The notes below the pieces were generated by a model. That model saw only the letters and a program-made list of their open reading frames with translations. It searched no databases and had not been told where the DNA came from. This document shows positions 30,461 through 37,269 of a DNA stretch of 37,488 nt, in pieces. Made by a program: the position numbers and the translations under genes. Where the stretch lies: NCBI GenBank assembly GCA_001788835.1, contig MFXK01000038.1:1-37488 (forward strand), written 5' to 3'. The stretch is from Candidatus Peregrinibacteria bacterium RIFOXYB2_FULL_33_20 (lineage in GTDB: Bacteria; Patescibacteriota; Gracilibacteria; UBA1369; GWF2-33-10). Every line of letters begins with the position of its first letter. The stretch's first letter is position 1.

Positions 30461-31129
30461 ATGAATATGGAAAAATACTCAAAATTTATAGACATAAATG
30501 CTGTATTAAAAAAAACAAAAACAACTTTAGATTTAATTGAACAGAAATATAACGAATCCCTACATGATCAAGAAATTTCATCAGAATTACTCGTTGAAAT
30601 AAAAGATTATTTGGGGAATTTAAGATCATCTTTGGATTATCTAAGAAGTAAGGTATCAAAATATAATTTTCCTATTTGTAAGACAGAAAAAGAATTTGAT
30701 AATGCTACTACTGACCTAAATTCAGATTTAAAATCTGCTATAAAAAAATGGCAACCATTTCAAAATAATCAATGGATTGATTGGTTTAATATCTTGAACA
30801 ACAAGTCAAAACATATCACTTTAATTCCACAAAAAAGAAAAGAAAATATTAAAATTACAGTGTCGTCTCCTAATAATGGAGGATCTGTTAGTTGGGGTTC
30901 TGGAGTAACTTTTGGTGGCGGAGTAAGTGTTATGGGAGTTCCAATTGATCCTCGAACTCAAATGCCTGTACCGAATAATATTGTAAAAACAGAAAAAACA
31001 ATATGGGTTAGTTTTGAATTTGAACATGAAAATTTACCAAATGGAATATCGGCACTACCTTTTTTAAAAGAATGTTTTGATAAAATAGCAAAATTGATTG
31101 CTGAAATTGAAGTTTTTATAGAAAAATAA
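30461..31129 (+). CDS. Hypothetical protein in the restriction-modification cassette
   Basis: 222 residues starting 3 nt after the methyltransferase stop, so probably the third gene of one message. The N-terminal half is helical (NAVLKKTKTTLDLIEQKY, LRSSLDYLRSKVSKY); a Gly/Ser-rich loop (about 135-155, GGSVSWGSGVTFGGGVSVMG) separates it from a beta-alpha C-terminus. No catalytic motif or membrane segment. It could be an accessory of the restriction system, but nothing in the sequence proves that. Confidence 0.65.
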   Translation: MNMEKYSKFIDINAVLKKTKTTLDLIEQKYNESLHDQEISSELLVEIKDYLGNLRSSLDYLRSKVSKYNFPICKTEKEFDNATTDLNSDLKSAIKKWQPFQNNQWIDWFNILNNKSKHITLIPQKRKENIKITVSSPNNGGSVSWGSGVTFGGGVSVMGVPIDPRTQMPVPNNIVKTEKTIWVSFEFEHENLPNGISALPFLKECFDKIAKLIAEIEVFIEK

Positions 31130-31132
31130 GGT

Positions 31133-31182
31133 GTTTTTCTTTTTCCAATTCACCCCTAACCCCTCTTGGAAAAAAGAAAAAC
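31133..31182 (+). terminator. Long hairpin with CACCCC..CCCCTC loop behind c1 genes
   Basis: GTTTTTCTTTTTCCAA (31133-31148) pairs with TTGGAAAAAAGAAAAAC (31166-31182); the loop is TTCACCCCTAACCCCTC. It is 4 nt after the last stop codon of c1, as expected for a terminator. The loop motif recurs at 37279-37329 and 1-56. Confidence 0.6.
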
Positions 31183-31313
31183 GAAAAAATAAAAATTCCA
31201 AATAATGATAAAATTCTTCAACAAAATAATAAGGAATGAAAAAATATTGAAAAATACGCTTCGGGGTCGTTACACTTGACTTTCTTCCGTTATCACTCCA
31301 GAAAATCACCCTC

Positions 31314-31411
31314 GCACAACACAGTATATCTGGCTCGCTCCTGCCGTCGCTCCACCCATATTTGTCTCCGCTATCGCTACGGCAAACATCAGATATACTG
31401 AAACGTTGTAC
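31314..31411 (+). other. attC site B
   Basis: Boxes GCACAAC and GTTGTAC (31405-31411). Lower stem AGTATATCTG (31323-31332) with CAGATATACT (31390-31399), perfect. Upper stem TTTG..CCG/CGG..CAAA. Between lower and upper stem the left side has 28 unpaired nt ending TCGCTCCACCCATA; the right side only CAT. Confidence 0.85.
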
Positions 31412-31923
31412 GACATAACAAAAAATGATATACTTTGATATATCTAAAAATTAATCTCAAAATATGGAATCACCTAGTCAACCGCCTACTACAACTCAAG
31501 AACTTTTGGATATAATCCCTATAGGTAGAACTAAATCTATTGATGGCTCTATGTATATACAAAAAGCTACAACTGGAGCTTCAGTTTGGCCTATAGATGA
31601 TTCGGGAAATTTTCCAATAGCCACATTTAACACTCTAAGCTTGCAAGTTTCCCCTCCAAAACCAACAAACTTAAATCGAGATGAAAAAGATTTAATATTA
31701 GAATTTTATAATTTTTTAAATGAAAAGTTTGGTTTATAATTTTTTTGTTACCTCGTACAACAAGAGAATATGCGGTTCGCTCCACTCCTCACTTATTTAA
31801 AATTTTTGAATTTAAATAAATTTTCTGGTTTTCTAAAAATTCAATCTTAAAAATTCCGCTCTCTCAACTGGCAAAATGATAGGAAATATTATATCATTTC
31901 GCCAGTTCGCATATTCTCAAACG
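31406..31923 (+). mobile_element. Cassette c2
   Basis: One gene. Its start GTTGTACGACATAACAAAAA (from 31405) is complementary to its own end TTTTTGTTACCTCGTACAAC (to 31761) with only a few mismatches. The neighbouring cassette start does not match that end beyond the core box. Confidence 0.75.
31464..31739 (+). CDS. Hypothetical cassette protein, 91 residues
   Basis: Unrecognised. Polar Pro/Thr-rich start, a central SIDGSMYIQKATTGASVWPIDDSG that may form a beta sheet, and a C-terminal helix RDEKDLILEFYNFLNEKFGL. The stop codon TAA lies at the edge of the cassette end repeat. It is the only frame filling this cassette and points in the cassette direction. Confidence 0.6.
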   Translation: MESPSQPPTTTQELLDIIPIGRTKSIDGSMYIQKATTGASVWPIDDSGNFPIATFNTLSLQVSPPKPTNLNRDEKDLILEFYNFLNEKFGL

Positions 31924-31929
31924 TTGTGT
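31755..31929 (+). other. attC site C (long)
   Basis: Boxes GTACAAC and GTTGTGT (31923-31929). Lower stem AGAATATGCG/CGCATATTCT is perfect; upper stem AACTGGC.AAATGATA/TATCATTT.GCCAGTT. The left bulge is about 80 nt, beginning GTTCGCTCC; AT-rich sequence has expanded it. Confidence 0.85.
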
Positions 31930-32479
31930 GCAATTCTTTTCCCTCACTATTTATGAGTAGTAACCAAATAAATGAACAAGGTTTAGAATCAAATCAATTA
32001 CGAGAAAAATTCTTTTTCCACTGGGCTATTCTCGCGGCAGGAACATTCTCACTTTTAATTCCATTTGTTCAAAGTCTTGAGAATATAGTTTCCCCAAAAC
32101 TATTTATTGCAGTTGAAATACTATTAATCCTTTCAATAATTTCTTCCTCATTAAGAAATTTCTTTTGGGCAAAAACAACATGGTATTGGGCTGAAATTAA
32201 TGCTGGAATAACAAAAAACAAAAAGCTTAAAGATAAATATCATAAATTCGCCCTGAGTTTAGAATTTTTCTCAATCATTTTCTATATTGTTGGAATATTT
32301 TTAGGTCTAGTTTTTGTAAACCTCAACATATTGTGTTAGTGAGCGGGAAAAGAACAGCACACAACAGGGTATAGGCGGTTCCGCTCCTCCTTCCAGTCGT
32401 CGCTCCACTCATATTGTCTGGCGGTAAAACGCTATCGCGTTATATTATACCGCCAGACAACATCGCCTATACCCGAACG
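31924..32479 (+). mobile_element. Cassette c3
   Basis: One membrane-protein gene. Start GTTGTGTGCAATTCTTTTCC (from 31923) and own end GGGAAAAGAACAGCACACAAC-type arm (32339-32365) are complementary over about 25 nt with three mismatches. Confidence 0.75.
31953..32339 (+). CDS. Small cassette membrane protein, three membrane segments
   Basis: 128 residues from ATG 31953. A GTG at 31926 in frame lies inside the attC right box and is rejected. Hydrophobic segments at about 20-40, 48-66 and 98-122; KFFFHWAILAAGTFSLLIPF begins the first. A charged loop (ITKNKKLKDKYHKF) separates the second and third. Unrecognised; small membrane proteins are a common cassette type. The stop codon overlaps the cassette end arm. 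Confidence 0.65.
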   Translation: MSSNQINEQGLESNQLREKFFFHWAILAAGTFSLLIPFVQSLENIVSPKLFIAVEILLILSIISSSLRNFFWAKTTWYWAEINAGITKNKKLKDKYHKFALSLEFFSIIFYIVGIFLGLVFVNLNILC

Positions 32480-32485
32480 TTATAC
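32359..32485 (+). other. attC site D
   Basis: Boxes ACACAAC and GTTATAC (32479-32485). Lower stem GGGTATAGGCG/CGCCTATACCC; upper stem TTGTCTGGCGGTA/TACCGCCAGACAA, 13 bp perfect; small top hairpin. The left bulge begins GTTCCGCTCC and ends GTCGCTCCACTCATA. Nearly identical to site G. Confidence 0.9.
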
Positions 32486-33664
32486 GACATTTGAGAGTGT
32501 GCCTTTACTCTAGAAAAAAGTGGGGCTAAATTTATAAACGATCTAACCTCTTATCCTGATATGGAGAAAAAAATTGTAGAAAAAATTTTCACAGAACATG
32601 GCTTAGACAAAGTTGAGTCCATTGCAAATATTGAGATTGGCTTCACGAACAAAGTTTATTTGATAAATGACGCTTTTATTCTCAAAGTTTGCGAAGATGA
32701 AAGCAACGAACAAAAATTTGAAGTGGAGGTATTTTTCTACAATTTTTTCAAGGATAAAATTCCTGTTCCTATAATCAAAGTTTTCGACAAATCCAAAAGT
32801 ATTTATGGCAAATTTTTCATGATTTATCCCAAAATTGAGGGTGATAATCTGTACTCAAAATGGCATTTGTTGAGCAATGAACAGAGAAAAATCATCATCA
32901 AACAACTTTGCGATATTCTTAAAGTCATCAACAAATCGCCATACGATGAATTTTTGCAAAAGTTTGATATAAATTTTTCGGACAACTGGCACGATAAGAT
33001 ACTCAACCAAATCCAAAACTCATTAAAAACAATTGAGGAAAAGAAACTTCTGTCCCCAGAATTTATCAAAGTCATCATGAAATTCATTGACGACAATCAT
33101 CACGTTCTCAAAGAGCAGAAGCTCGCGTTGGTATATTGGGATGCTCACTTTGATAACATTTTAGTTCAGGATAATAAGATTGTCGGGCTTTTGGATTTTG
33201 AAAGGACAGAAGTTTCTTCATTGGATTTCGTTTTGGATATTGTCAAAAGAATGGTTGAATATCCGAAAAAGTATATGTCCGAAAAATTTGAAAAATTTGC
33301 CAAAAAAGAAGATTACATCCATCTCTTGAATTGGTTTCAGGAATTTTATCCAGAACTATTTAAATTTGAAAATTTGGATAAGAGGTTAGATCTCTACGCT
33401 GTTGAACATGATTTAGATACTCTGATTTGGTATCCAAATTCTGTCGAAGTTAAACAAATGATAGCTAAAACAGTAAAGTATGATAGCCCCACTTTTTAAA
33501 ATAATGAACGGCACACTCTCAAACGCAAGGGGGCGCTGCGCTTTCGCTCCATTTCATTCCGCTCACCCTCGTATAACAAGGGATATACGGTTCGGGGCTC
33601 GGCTCGCCCCTCACCCAAATTTTTCTTCCGCTACGCTACAGAAAAACTTCGTATATCCCTGACG
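32480..33664 (+). mobile_element. Cassette c4: APH-fold kinase
   Basis: Start and end arms: GTTATACGA (32479) with TCGTATAAC (33569-33577); TTTGAGAGTGTGCC (32490-32503) with GGCACACTCTCAAA (33510-33523), exact; AAAAAGTGGGGCTA (to 32528) with TAGCCCCACTTTTT (33484-33497), exact. On the right a 45-nt GC-rich insertion lies between the box and the inner arms. Confidence 0.8.
32561..33499 (+). CDS. Aminoglycoside phosphotransferase-family kinase
   Basis: 312 residues of the APH/choline-kinase fold. N-lobe: IEIGFTNKVYLINDAFILKV, with K42 as likely ATP-binding lysine, then an acidic helix (EVEVFFYNFF). Catalytic loop VYWDAHFDNILV: D194 and N199 are kept but the usual HGD reads YWD, so the His is Tyr. 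Metal-binding D212 lies in LLDFER. The family includes drug, choline, homoserine and methylthioribose kinases; the substrate cannot be named. The last five codons (DSPTF) are encoded inside the cassette's exact terminal repeat. Confidence 0.8.
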   Translation: MEKKIVEKIFTEHGLDKVESIANIEIGFTNKVYLINDAFILKVCEDESNEQKFEVEVFFYNFFKDKIPVPIIKVFDKSKSIYGKFFMIYPKIEGDNLYSKWHLLSNEQRKIIIKQLCDILKVINKSPYDEFLQKFDINFSDNWHDKILNQIQNSLKTIEEKKLLSPEFIKVIMKFIDDNHHVLKEQKLALVYWDAHFDNILVQDNKIVGLLDFERTEVSSLDFVLDIVKRMVEYPKKYMSEKFEKFAKKEDYIHLLNWFQEFYPELFKFENLDKRLDLYAVEHDLDTLIWYPNSVEVKQMIAKTVKYDSPTF

Positions 33665-33670
33665 TTAGTT
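33571..33670 (+). other. attC site E
   Basis: Boxes GTATAAC and GTTAGTT (33664-33670). Lower stem AGGGATATACG/CGTATATCCCT perfect; upper stem TTTTTCT/AGAAAAA; left bulge GTTCGGGGCTCGG...CTCACCCAAA, right side only CTT. Confidence 0.88.
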
Positions 33671-34301
33671 GCAATAAGCAAACGGGCTGACTGCGTAAAA
33701 CTTATATATGGCTTTATTTTCTAATAGTCTAAGATGAAAAATTTAGCACCAAACATTATGAGGCAACGATTGCTGATAGAAGGATTCTATAAAATCGATG
33801 CTAACAAAAGCGTAATCGAAAATTATTTCAAAAAAATAACTAAATCTCTTAATCTTCGAATGTATGGAAAACCTATAATTTTCTCACCTGGTGGAAAAGG
33901 TAAAGAAGAAAATCAAGGTTATGACGCTTTTGTTCCATTGATAGATTCAGGAATCTCAGTTTATGTTTGGTCTAATGCTAAATTTTTATCATTGATAATT
34001 TACACTTGTAAATCATTTGACGAAAATAAAGCCCTCGAAGTTACTAAAAAGTTTTGGAAAATAGATAAAATAGAATCGCAGTCTTTCTAACGCCCGTTTG
34101 CTTACTCTTCGGGATTTTTTGCTTCGCAAAAACCGTTGCACTATCCCTCGGTCTCCGCTTCGCTCCGACGCAACTAACAGGAATTTAACGGTTCCGAAAC
34201 CTTGCAGGTTTCTCCACCCAAATTGAATTTTGGAGGTCGCTCGCTGTGGTTTGCCTCGGCTCGCTCCATCTCTCAAAATTCAACTTCGTTAAATTCCGAC
34301 G
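33665..34301 (+). mobile_element. Cassette c5: SAM-decarboxylase-like gene
   Basis: Start GTTAGTTGCAA then TAAGCAAACGGGC (to 33687). Own end GCCCGTTTGCTTA (34092-34104) and GCAACTAAC (34170-34178) are exact complements, separated by 65 nt that include a hairpin TTTTTGC-TTC-GCAAAAA (34116-34132), possibly the gene's terminator. Confidence 0.75.
33734..34090 (+). CDS. S-adenosylmethionine decarboxylase-like protein
   Basis: 118 residues whose order of elements follows small prokaryotic AdoMet decarboxylases (SpeH): an N-terminal RQRLLIEGFYKID strand, a helix, then YDAFVPLIDSGISVYVWSNAKFLSLIIYTCKSF and a helix KALEVTKKFWKI. The family's ESH self-cleavage site is DSG here (D71-S72-G73); the serine that would become the pyruvoyl group is kept, while Glu and His are not. 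C92 matches the FTCG cysteine. It may be an active variant or a homologue with another role. No polyamine genes are nearby. Confidence 0.55.
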   Translation: MKNLAPNIMRQRLLIEGFYKIDANKSVIENYFKKITKSLNLRMYGKPIIFSPGGKGKEENQGYDAFVPLIDSGISVYVWSNAKFLSLIIYTCKSFDENKALEVTKKFWKIDKIESQSF

Positions 34302-34307
34302 TTAGAT
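34172..34307 (+). other. attC site F
   Basis: Boxes AACTAAC and GTTAGATGCA (34301-34310), the classical integron core. Lower stem GGAATTTAACG/CGTTAAATTCC; upper stem TTGAATTTTG/CAAAATTCAA; left bulge GTTCCGAAACC...TCTCCACCCAAA, right side CTT. The top loop contains CGCTCGC and CGCTCCA copies. Confidence 0.9.
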
Positions 34308-35126
34308 GCAATGGCCGTTTGGGGGCTTGGCATTTTAAAAAAAGTATGGAGAACGACAAGTGATTTCTCGTTCCTCCATGAAGCGAACTATCTCAGCAGG
34401 TGACATTCCAGCTCTCGGCAAAGCTGCTGTTGGCTGTTGCCTGAAGAACAAAAGCATTTCAACCGCCATAGGATTCATGCCCAATTGGAGTATTTCTGTA
34501 ACGCTCGGTTTTTCTATTTCATCAGAAACATCTCTTACCCTACTTCTTGTAGTATCAAGGACATCCTGTGGCTCAAGAGTAGCAGCATTTGCCTCGAGCA
34601 CCATTACGGCTGGTGAGACCCGATCTCCTAAATACCAATGACTAATTCGACCGCGAGCAGAACTTGCTTCTGCTTCATCTCTCTGAGTTGTATCAACAAT
34701 ATCACCTTGGTTGCCCCAACGCTCCGAAGTTTCCAAAACTTTTCGTATGAACCGATAACTAATTCGACTACCAACAGCCTCTCGAACAAGACCAACGAGT
34801 TTATGTACATCTCCAGCTTGTTTTCGCCCTCGGTCTTCTGCTTCACCCCAATCTATGGCAATAGCTTGTGCTCTCTCAAGTTCTGCTCGCGGAGATGATG
34901 GTGCTTTTAATCCAATCATAATAAAACATTAAAGGAAAGCAACGTAGTCTCACCAGCCTTATTTGTCAAACAAAATTATCCAAAAAACGCCCCCAACGGC
35001 CACAGCATATAACAGGGTATAGGCGGTTCCGCTCCTCCTTTCAGTCGTCGCTCCACCCATATTGTCTGGCGGTAGATCGCTTCGCGATATATTATACCGC
35101 CAGACAACATCGCCTATACCCGGACG
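34302..35126 (+). mobile_element. Cassette c6 (gene reversed)
   Basis: Start arm GTTAGATGC.ATGGCCGTTTGGGGGC (34301-34326) is complementary to its own end GCCCCCAACGGCCACAGCATATAAC (34989-35013) apart from about four positions. The only good gene lies on the minus strand, against cassette direction. Confidence 0.75.
34335..34919 (-). CDS. Hypothetical protein, reversed inside its cassette, foreign composition
   Basis: 194 residues, unrecognised, helical and charged (RAELERAQAIAIDWGEAEDR, HKLVGLVREAVGSR, SYRFIRKVLETSERWG; C-terminal MSPAEIVRFMEERE). The G+C is clearly higher than all neighbours and Arg is written with CGA/CGC/CGG codons rare elsewhere here, so it was acquired from a different host. 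A perfect TTGACA box (34964-34969, minus strand) lies upstream, so it probably carries its own promoter. The opposite strand has two shorter overlapping frames that are less convincing. Confidence 0.6.
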   Translation of the reverse strand: MIGLKAPSSPRAELERAQAIAIDWGEAEDRGRKQAGDVHKLVGLVREAVGSRISYRFIRKVLETSERWGNQGDIVDTTQRDEAEASSARGRISHWYLGDRVSPAVMVLEANAATLEPQDVLDTTRSRVRDVSDEIEKPSVTEILQLGMNPMAVEMLLFFRQQPTAALPRAGMSPAEIVRFMEEREITCRSPYFF

Positions 35127-35132
35127 TTATAT
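35007..35132 (+). other. attC site G
   Basis: Boxes ATATAAC and GTTATAT (35126-35132). Lower stem GGGTATAGGCG/CGCCTATACCC; upper stem TTGTCTGGCGGTA/TACCGCCAGACAA perfect; top hairpin ATCGC-TTC-GCGAT. Left bulge GTTCCGCTCCTCC...GTCGCTCCACCCATA (about 36 nt) against CAT on the right. Best-formed site of the array. Confidence 0.92.
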
Positions 35133-35788
35133 GAAATAATTTTTGGGCAACTATAATCAAAACATTTATGAACTACTTCATCATCATTCGTGGTCCACTA
35201 GGTAGTGGTAAATCAACAATATCCGAGAAACTCGCTGAAAATCTCGACGCTAAACTTATTGCAATAGATGAGGTGCTCGAAAATCTTAAATTAGATAAGG
35301 TTGATGAAAAAGAAGGTTGTATCCCTGCAATAAACTTTATAAAAGCAAGTGAAAGCGTACTGCCAGAAGTCAAAAAAACATTACAAAATGGGAAAATAGT
35401 AATTTTCGACGCTTGCTTTTACCATAAAGAAGTCATCGAGCACCTCATCCAAAACCTTCCCTTTTCGTACCATATTTTTACACTGAAAGCACCATTGGAA
35501 CTTTGTATAAAAAGAGATAGTGAGCGCAACAAAACTCATGGTGAAGGTGCGGCATGGGCTGTTCATTCGCTCGTTTCTCGGTTCGATTATGGCAAAAACA
35601 TTGACGTTACCGGAAGTATTCAGGATGCCTTAAAAGATATACTTTCTGATTTGCCAAAGCCCAAAAATTAAATCATATAACACAGAATATGCGGTTTCGC
35701 TCCCGTTGGTCGCTCCACCCATATTTGCTGGTGATGGCTCACTTCGTTCGCTATTATATCACCAGCAAACATCGCATACCCTGGGACA
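35127..35788 (+). mobile_element. Cassette c7: P-loop kinase
   Basis: Start GTTATATGAAATAATTTTTGGGC (35126-35148) is complementary to its own end GCCCAAAAATTAAATCATATAAC (35659-35681) at all but two positions. The gene's final codons and stop lie within the end arm. Confidence 0.8.
35168..35671 (+). CDS. Small P-loop kinase (AAA_33 / gluconokinase-like fold)
   Basis: 167 residues with Walker A GPLGSGKS (9-16), a first acidic strand LIAIDEVLENL (D34), second strand KIVIFDACFYH (D77) and a lid-type LCIKRDSERNKTHGEG with basic residues. This is the layout of small-molecule kinases such as chloramphenicol phosphotransferase-like and gluconate kinase proteins. The substrate is unknown; a drug- or metabolite-modifying role would suit a cassette. 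TATAAT (35152-35157) lies 10 nt before the ATG, so the message may be almost leaderless. The last residues KPKN are encoded in the terminal repeat. Confidence 0.75.
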   Translation: MNYFIIIRGPLGSGKSTISEKLAENLDAKLIAIDEVLENLKLDKVDEKEGCIPAINFIKASESVLPEVKKTLQNGKIVIFDACFYHKEVIEHLIQNLPFSYHIFTLKAPLELCIKRDSERNKTHGEGAAWAVHSLVSRFDYGKNIDVTGSIQDALKDILSDLPKPKN

Positions 35789-35794
35789 TTAGGC
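35675..35794 (+). other. attC site H (altered right box)
   Basis: Left box ATATAAC, right box ATTAGGC (35788-35794) where the invariant G is A. Upper stem TTTGCTGGTGAT/ATCACCAGCAAA, 12 bp perfect; the lower stem is reduced to TATGCG/CGCATA; left bulge GTTTCGCTCCCGTTGGTCGCTCCACCCATA. Confidence 0.8.
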
Positions 35795-35840
35795 GACATA
35801 CATTTTCGACCGTTCCTGTGCCGAAATATTTCCTAAAAAC

Positions 35841-35868
35841 TTGACAAGAATTAAACAATATGTATAAT
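35841..35868 (+). promoter_or_regulatory. Promoter of cassette c8 leader
   Basis: Perfect TTGACA (35841-35846), 16 nt, perfect TATAAT (35863-35868): the strongest promoter in the window. The expected start is at or within 1-2 nt of the ATG at 35875, making the leader message leaderless. Confidence 0.8.
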
Positions 35869-35874
35869 CGTACC

Positions 35875-35943
35875 ATGAACAAGCAAATGTACAACCAAGC
35901 CATAACGACTACCACAACCAACAGTTCTCTGGGGTTGCGGTAA
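35875..35943 (+). CDS. Attenuator leader peptide, 22 codons with five consecutive Thr
   Basis: ATG to TAA reads MNKQMYNQAI, then five threonines written ACG ACT ACC ACA ACC, then NSSLGLR. It starts at the predicted transcription start and ends 28 nt before the terminator. Its last codons contain the left half of an antiterminator, so ribosome position decides which hairpin forms. Comparable to thrL-type leaders in design, though no Thr-pathway gene follows. Translation is inferred, not shown. Confidence 0.6.
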   Translation: MNKQMYNQAITTTTTNSSLGLR

Positions 35944-35997
35944 TTTGTATATTCATTTCTAAGAATCACAGCCGCCCCCAGAAAGGGCGGTTTTTTT
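35928..35997 (+). terminator. Attenuator: terminator with overlapping 11-bp antiterminator
   Basis: Terminator: CCGCCC (35972-35977), loop CCAGAAA, GGGCGG (35985-35990), then seven T. Antiterminator: TCTGGGG (35928-35934) with CCCCAGA (35976-35982), and GCGG (35937-35940) with CCGC (35972-35975), 11 bp with a two-base bulge. The structures are mutually exclusive. Earlier CAACC copies in the leader could pair with GGTTG as a third, competing arm. Confidence 0.7.
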
Positions 35998-36097
35998 ATA
36001 TTTTAACAATTCTATCACAACATCCATCCTCCAACACGGCTCGTCCGTGTAATACTTTAATTTTTTATTTAGTTATTATTTCTTAATCAAACTTATT

Positions 36098-36496
36098 ATG
36101 AAACCATTAAATAACTCGTCATATGACGAGGAAAATCCTATCGCAAGATCCGCTAGACTCGAAGCAATCCAAGAAGCAGGTTGCAATGAATATCTTGCCA
36201 GGGGAATTGAAGAAATACAAAAAAAATTCGGGCTCGACATCACTCCATCATCAAGTTTTGATGAAGTTATGGAACAAGCAAGAGCTCGACTAAATCGAAA
36301 TTTTGAGGCATACCTTGCTTCACTTTCATCACGAAATCTTGAGAACTTAAAAGGTGTTCAAGCAAGGTTGGAAGAATTTAAAGAGTTAATGGAATATCTA
36401 GGCGCAAGATACAACGATCTTGTCGATCTCATAAACAGCAGAATACGTAGACGTGCTTCGGCTTCGCTTAAAGAGGCGGCCATGATTCAAAAATAG
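36098..36496 (+). CDS. Hypothetical helical cassette protein under attenuator control
   Basis: 132 residues, almost wholly helical and charged: ARSARLEAIQEAGCNEYLARGIEEIQKKFG, EVMEQARARLNRNFEAYLASL, NLENLKGVQARLEEFKELMEYLGARYNDLVDLI, likely a coiled-coil bundle. No known domain. It lies about 100 nt behind the c8 terminator, so expression needs read-through or a weak local promoter. The stop codon is just before the cassette end arm. Confidence 0.6.
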   Translation: MKPLNNSSYDEENPIARSARLEAIQEAGCNEYLARGIEEIQKKFGLDITPSSSFDEVMEQARARLNRNFEAYLASLSSRNLENLKGVQARLEEFKELMEYLGARYNDLVDLINSRIRRRASASLKEAAMIQK

Positions 36497-36541
36497 TCCG
36501 GAAATATTTCGGCAAATTGAATCAATTTGGAAATGTACGTC

Positions 36542-36709
36542 ACTTAACAAAAAATATGCGGTTCGCTTTCTTAAATTCAAAGCAAACTTAAAGTCAGCCA
36601 ATTCAAAATTTCAATAAATCAAAAATTCAGTGACTCACCCAACTTGACATGTAGTAGCCTGTCGGCAATTATACTACATGTCAAGTTCGCATATTCTCAA
36701 ACATTATGT
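36542..36709 (+). other. attC site I (altered right box)
   Basis: Left box ACTTAAC, right box ATTATGT (36703-36709), again A instead of the invariant G. Lower stem AATATGCG/CGCATATT; upper stem AACTTGACATGTAGTA/TACTACATGTCAAGTT, 16 bp perfect; left bulge about 80 nt, beginning GTTCGCTTTC and ending GACTCACCC. Confidence 0.8.
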
Positions 36710-36810
36710 GAAATATACTTTTCTTTTTACGGCTAACACCTTACACTTTTTTATAATGAACAAATTTTATTTTTATTTTTTATAGAGGGGGGTGATTAAA
36801 TAATAAATTT

Positions 36811-37269
36811 ATGCGTCAAAAATTCATTCTATCCATATTAAACATTTTAACACTCTGTGTAGTTATTGCCGCAGTTAGCGTTTTTTTTGTTAATGATGCT
36901 CAATGGATAGGTTTCGTTTTAATTATTCTCGCCTTACTTTGTATGGTTTCTCTTATCCCATTTAAAATAAAACTGCGATCTATTCAGCCAGATATTTTTT
37001 TTGGCTTAATAGATAATGGCATTTTGGCCGTTCTAGCTATTTTTGGTGGTCATTTTGCTGGTGTAACTGGAGCCATTCTAGGCGGGGTTGTTGGCAATGC
37101 CATAACTGACGGTATCGCTGGAATTTTTGAAGGATATTCTGCTGAAAAATTAAGACTACAATTAATACCAGAGGAAAGGACAATGCTTAAATCGGCTGTT
37201 GGAAAAATGGCTGGTTGTCTTTTGGGAGCAGGCGTTGTTTTGATCATTGCCAACCTGATTAATTTTTAA
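36811..37269 (+). CDS. Cassette membrane protein, about five membrane segments
   Basis: 152 residues. Hydrophobic segments at about 8-29, 32-52, 60-80, 82-103 and 128-150. The middle GGHFAGVTGAILGGVVGNAITDGIAGIFEGY is Gly/Ala-rich with two acidic positions, recalling tightly packed transporter helices such as VIT1/CCC1-type proteins, but the match is too weak to name it. A TATAAT at 36752-36757 could be the -10 box. The GGGGGG run upstream is too far from the ATG to be a normal ribosome-binding site. Confidence 0.65.
   Translation: MRQKFILSILNILTLCVVIAAVSVFFVNDAQWIGFVLIILALLCMVSLIPFKIKLRSIQPDIFFGLIDNGILAVLAIFGGHFAGVTGAILGGVVGNAITDGIAGIFEGYSAEKLRLQLIPEERTMLKSAVGKMAGCLLGAGVVLIIANLINF

Follow-up and report, generated by a model that had tools for sequence, protein, structure and literature searches.

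The window, by which we mean the whole 37,488-nt stretch of DNA analyzed here, carries at positions 35841-35997 a promoter, a short open reading frame (ORF) with a run of Thr codons, and a terminator, followed by a gene for a small protein. Is this arrangement a regulatory switch, and if so, which signal does it read? In enterobacteria, the thrL leader (Thr/Ile attenuation) and the trp/his-type attenuators combine a leader peptide rich in the sensed amino acid with alternative 1:2, 2:3, and 3:4 helices and an intrinsic terminator. The unit in the window resembles them in its short leader rich in the sensed residue, its alternative helices, and its intrinsic terminator. In contrast to thrL, it belongs to a different phylum-level lineage, has a near-leaderless start, contains Thr codons without codons for a second sensed amino acid, and precedes an orphan gene in a cassette rather than a gene for a Thr enzyme. 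The evidence presented below points to a ribosome-mediated transcription attenuator that senses tRNA-Thr charging, to which we assign a probability of roughly 0.78. Amino acid attenuators of this type are already known; what is unusual is the place, namely an integron-like cassette in a Patescibacteria-type genome without a recognizable threonine synthase.

Structure of the leader region

All named parts of the 157-nt promoter-to-terminator unit can be read directly from the sequence (Table 1), in agreement with the preliminary description, which had reported a consensus promoter, a leader of 22 codons that includes five for Thr, and a T-run terminator; the 11-bp antiterminator that it placed over the end of the leader corresponds to the 2:3 helix. 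This antiterminator and the 3:4 terminator hairpin (-13.9 kcal/mol for the last 34 nt) are mutually exclusive, and a 1:2 hairpin is also present. Exact TTGACA-N15-19-TATAAT sites occur just eight times on both strands in 789 kb of this genome, and two of these eight consensus promoters belong to the two copies of the attenuator unit. No Shine-Dalgarno sequence is visible before the leader ORF in the window. Since the leader ATG follows the -10 box after only six bases, the leader mRNA is probably leaderless and translated from its 5' end.

Table 1. Features of the attenuator cassette, its homologues, and the other predicted attenuators of the genome
Feature	Location	Strand	Remarks
attC-like site, one cassette before that of the attenuator	35007..35132	+	R boxes ATATAAC / GTTATAT, arms fold; from a crude scan for motif and fold
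Upstream flanking attC-like element	35675..35797	+	by eye; inverted arms 35721-35735 / 35758-35772
Promoter	35841..35868	+	TTGACA 35841-35846, 16-nt spacer, TATAAT 35863-35868; perfect hexamers
Leader ORF, MNKQMYNQAITTTTTNSSLGLR	35875..35943	+	ATG 35875, stop TAA 35941-35943, 22 codons
Thr sensor codons	35905..35919	+	ACG ACT ACC ACA ACC; overlap region 1
Region 1, UACCACAACC	35910-35919	+	within Thr codons; pairs with region 2
Region 2	35929..35942	+	pairs with region 1 or region 3
1:2 helix	35910-35919 / 35933-35942	+	UACCACAACC with GGUUGCGGUA, 9 pairs, one mismatch
2:3 helix (antiterminator)	35929-35941 / 35971-35981	+	CUGGGGUUGCGGU with GCCGCCCCCAG, 11 pairs, UU bulge
Region 3	35970..35981	+	5' arm of terminator; 3' arm of antiterminator (35971-35981)
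Intrinsic terminator (3:4 hairpin)	35970..35997	+	stem arms 35970-35977 and 35985-35992; run of seven U ends at 35997
Relic of second small ORF, YHNIHPPTRLVRVIL*	36013..36060	+	ATG removed by alignment gap in the window copy
Putative controlled gene, 132-aa protein	36098..36496	+	predicted three helices; no known relatives beyond a family of four
Downstream flanking attC-like element	36531..36713	+	by eye; inverted arms 36641-36656 / 36672-36687
Second small ORF, intact, between terminator and gene	L002:1490-1620	-	
Second small ORF, intact, between terminator and gene	L003:282-341		
Second small ORF, intact, between terminator and gene	L019:1308-1369		
Predicted Thr5 leader, MLQIIKTTTTTAIQ	L071:11274	-	before thrS (TIGR00418, 678.2 bits)
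Predicted Cys3 leader, MKSTNIYNQINNCCCGLGIVPRSACLCS (MKSTNIYNQINNCCCGLG...)	L035:11911	-	before cysteine synthase (TIGR01136, 343.5 bits, cut-off 344.15)
Predicted aromatic-run leader, MNTLNKIFGFWFYFYSPIAVRTF (...FGFWFYFY...)	L031:11720	+	before DAHP synthase (TIGR01361)
Predicted Leu/Ile/Val leader, MEKNLHLIVSLVLI	L069:5658	-	before acetolactate synthase (TIGR00118)

Conservation of the leader

A second copy of the unit was found on contig C18 of the same genome (80% identity over 301 bases), so that the leader does recur in another cassette, where the preliminary description had proposed to look for it. The third copy lies in G116 (73% identity), which matches the metagenome-assembled genome (MAG) Candidatus Peregrinibacteria bacterium CG_4_10_14_0_2_um_filter_43_11, and a fourth gene was identified in G009 by protein search. 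The homologous leader peptides MNNEIHNQFVTTTTTTNLGLR, MNRPMYNSSVDTTTTTNSLPGLR, and MEKNINRQLALTTTPISYGGRMISA retain the Thr run and a G.R motif. The last of them, from G009, shares little sequence with the others, yet its Thr run, three alternative helices, and switch are kept. Among the three closest leaders (window, C18, and G116), all insertions and deletions are multiples of 3 and preserve the reading frame; the C18 and G116 promoters are identical to that of the window in both hexamers and in spacer length. The 1:2, 2:3, and 3:4 arrangement, on whose conservation the preliminary description had staked its proposal, is kept in three homologues. One pair of the G116 2:3 helix is changed on both sides, from U-A to C-G, which is a compensatory substitution, although covariation counts are small with only four homologues.

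No further copies were found among 353 genomes of the class with a leader model or among 341 with a protein search, and searches of viral contigs, plasmids, and phages gave either nothing or motif matches without covariance-model support. In a pattern scan of genome contigs, the Peregrinibacteria MAG was the sole supported match. The leader was thus found in three genomes, all of one class, which does not favor the suggestion that the cassette functions in any host. A match at L016 (E 0.008 among 380 genomes), which has neither the Thr run nor the gene, was judged to be due to chance, as were short matches at L004-L006.

Predicted switching by ribosome position

The effect of a translating ribosome was modeled by masking the RNA from its 5' end up to the ribosome leading edge and folding the remainder at equilibrium; based on general ribosome footprints, the leading edge was assumed to lie ~13 nt past the first base of the A-site codon. 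For the window copy, loss of the terminator is confined to leading edges at nt 39-54 (probability of the terminator, 0.00-0.04); from nt 57 onward, this probability is about 0.9 or higher. With the 13-nt assumption, ribosomes on the window Thr codons have their edges at nt 43-55, so the modeled antitermination window fits ribosomes occupying these codons and, together with the retention of the Thr run in the homologues, supports the earlier proposal of Thr-codon sensing. At all four loci, including that of G009, whose leader is almost wholly different in sequence, the terminator disappears when the simulated ribosome is stalled on the Thr codons and returns when it stands at the stop codon. 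The same switch was reached by 0 of 400 dinucleotide shuffles of the window leader, 9 of 400 for C18, 52 of 400 for G116, and 3 of 400 for G009. With none of the window shuffles switching and the unit conserved at three other loci, the arrangement is more than a product of chance. Its parts, its conservation, and its fold switching, all established from sequence and calculation, demonstrate that the attenuator is real and conserved, with the anatomy of alternative helices proposed in the preliminary description.

In the proposed mechanism, RNA polymerase would start at about the leader AUG with a ribosome following behind. When Thr-tRNA is ample, the ribosome would reach the stop codon and cover region 2, the 3:4 terminator would form, and transcription would end before the gene. 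When Thr-tRNA is scarce, through lack of threonine or inhibition of threonyl-tRNA synthetase, the ribosome would stall on the five Thr codons and cover region 1; region 2 would then pair with region 3, the terminator would be prevented, and the small helical protein of the cassette would be made. If the leader is not translated at all, the 1:2 hairpin would leave the terminator free. For the untranslated homologous RNAs, the equilibrium fold of G116, which has a weak terminator, favors the antiterminator (terminator probability, 0.00), and that of C18 is split (0.54). Basal termination at these two loci must therefore rest on kinetics or translation.

Could the promoter and terminator instead produce a short stable RNA, or could the leader bind a ligand or a protein, with the ORF being fortuitous? 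The 157-nt RNA does fold better than its shuffles (z -2.07), as such a reading would have it. However, against it stand indels that keep the reading frame, the conservation of the Thr run, and a stall/stop switch that recurs in a homologue lacking overall similarity in sequence, and Rfam offers no family for the leader: at gathering thresholds, no Thr operon leader was matched in the window, L002, L003, or L019, and the matches obtained were tRNAs and rRNA alone. We consider this explanation hardly probable at all.

Predicted amino acid attenuators elsewhere in the genome

As an internal control, 789 kb of the genome, with 159 terminators upstream of an ORF, were scanned with the same switch criterion. 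The scan returned the two cassettes, four leaders before amino acid genes, and one site, at L060, that lies inside an open reading frame and was taken as a probable chance match. Some chance matches are indeed expected, since five sites that overlap no ATG match were obtained with AAG as a pseudo-start control, and none with GTA. In contrast, a match of codons and gene by chance is unlikely for the four host leaders, whose Thr, Cys, aromatic, and branched-chain codons precede thrS and the genes for cysteine synthase, DAHP synthase, and acetolactate synthase, respectively. These leaders are predicted to be further amino acid attenuators. For the thrS and cysteine synthase leaders, the modeled antitermination window coincides with ribosomes on the cognate Thr or Cys codons. 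Because the leader codons match the gene at most of the other scan loci, the unit in the window is very probably an amino acid attenuator sensing Thr-tRNA charging, and this charging is the likeliest signal because thrS of the same genome has a parallel leader.

Five Thr codons and a predicted ribosome-position switch are common to the cassette and thrS leaders, whereas no sequence homology between them is evident, and the thrS leader stands on another contig, where it precedes a core housekeeping gene. A Thr-run leader before thrS was not seen in 22 other genomes, in which a few of the loci had little or no upstream sequence. No threonine synthase scored above the cut-off in the genome, so that threonine may come from outside the cell.

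The internal control also bears on the suggestion in the preliminary description that the switch responds to general translation stress, with any slowing of ribosomes in the leader being effective and the Thr codons incidental. Because antitermination is predicted over a window of about six codons (edges 39-54), anything that slows ribosomes on codons 10-14 would have this effect. On the other hand, the feature kept in all four leaders, the diverged one of G009 included, is a run of Thr codons and not just any site of slow translation. The other leaders of the host use cognate codons: five Thr codons precede thrS, and the Cys, aromatic, and branched-chain leaders likewise stand at matching biosynthetic genes. 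Specific sensing of Thr-tRNA is the simpler reading, and a general stress response appears very unlikely.

Candidate attenuators of amino acid genes have been described for Actinobacteria in a previous comparative study (PMC1262725). The evidence given there is of the same comparative-genomics type, with alternative mRNA structures before amino acid genes, but the candidates are from another lineage and are not in mobile cassettes. In our searches, no literature linking Patescibacteria with transcription attenuation came up. If the proposed function is correct, classical amino acid attenuation operates in a Patescibacteria-type genome, of the class holding Candidatus Peregrinibacteria, and the same scan provides further predictions within one genome that are testable with reporters. 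In addition, L021:1525-1675 contains a short ORF (MKNTVLNLSLSSMMMSQHELRDELV) and, behind it, a terminator-like hairpin, both preceding a zinc-ribbon/HTH-like gene; this site was not returned by the switch scan.

The integron-like array

The array at 30461-37269 includes further cassettes with APH-family, AAA/chloramphenicol-phosphotransferase-like, and S-adenosylmethionine-decarboxylase-like proteins. Similarity between the window and C18 copies of the attenuator cassette covers the interval between consecutive attC-like elements and breaks off on either side, the pattern that a cassette should show, which supports the location given in the preliminary description. A strict attC scan passed one site, one cassette upstream, and did not find the two elements flanking the attenuator cassette, the upstream one of which has ATTAGGC as its R' box instead of GTTRRRY. 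Two tyrosine recombinases of the genome scored 224.9 and 142.3 bits against TIGR02249 (cut-off 265) and match XerA/XerC/XerD models; no IntI-type integron integrase was found above the cut-off in this incomplete genome. With a single strict attC-like site and no integrase over the cut-off, the array is best called integron-like.

Antibiotic-responsive leaders are known from integron cassettes: cmlA of class 1 integrons is subject to translation attenuation by a 9-aa leader (PMC8876359). Both cmlA and the attenuator cassette bring a promoter of their own together with a leader peptide that works through ribosome stalling, whereas cmlA controls translation initiation in answer to chloramphenicol and the unit in the window would act on transcription termination through Thr codons. 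The leader might by analogy be drug-responsive, with a peptidyl-transferase inhibitor of the chloramphenicol/linezolid type stalling ribosomes at the Thr run, so that the signal would be an antibiotic rather than Thr-tRNA. This is conceivable because chloramphenicol stalling is strongest immediately following Ala, Ser, or Thr codons (PMC12121999) and the cassette-borne cmlA uses a leader peptide; moreover, the protein of the preceding cassette matches the chloramphenicol-phosphotransferase-like PF07931 (29.3 bits) among other P-loop families, and the array also contains an APH-family gene. An antibiotic signal would, however, leave unexplained the Thr5 leader at thrS and the Cys, aromatic, and branched-chain leaders at matching genes, and the controlled protein resembles no resistance factor. 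We regard it as unlikely.

If Thr-tRNA charging is the signal, a mobile-looking cassette carries its switch along, and a movable gene still answers a nutrient signal. A broader proposal, which we put forward tentatively and at somewhat less than even odds, is that this mobile cassette has its own threonine-starvation switch resembling that of the host thrS and makes its small protein on loss of the threonine supply, attenuation being a nutrient-sensing system of the lineage that mobile genes have joined.

The putative controlled gene and the region behind the terminator

The attenuator probably turns on the gene for the 132-aa protein when threonine-tRNA runs short. The predicted structure of this protein consists of three helices (mean pLDDT, 78.4), and no meaningful match was obtained in Pfam, PHROGs, PADLOC, NCBIfam, or solved or viral structures. 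The downstream gene is thus, as noted previously, no recognizable Thr enzyme, and no link of its product to threonine metabolism or charging could be recognized by family or fold match. We infer the transcription start, the co-transcriptional kinetics, threonine as the signal, and the usefulness of the protein under threonine shortage. If this reading is correct, the attenuator offers an initial indication of the conditions under which this protein family is produced.

Between the terminator and the gene, the window contains the relic of a second small ORF, which is intact as MYNYH..PPTR.. (MYNYH[DN]..PPTR..) in C18, G116, and G009. Among these intact copies, most differences in the first 12 codons fall at third positions, and this ORF is conserved mainly at the amino acid level; it was not found without mismatches in other genomes of the class. 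The 3' part of the homologous gene in G116 seems to be interrupted by an IS element with its transposase on the other strand (L003 / L012, about 630-1830). The bases ACGGCTGGGCTGTTCT recur inverted at the far end, and a short repeated target sequence is present on both sides.
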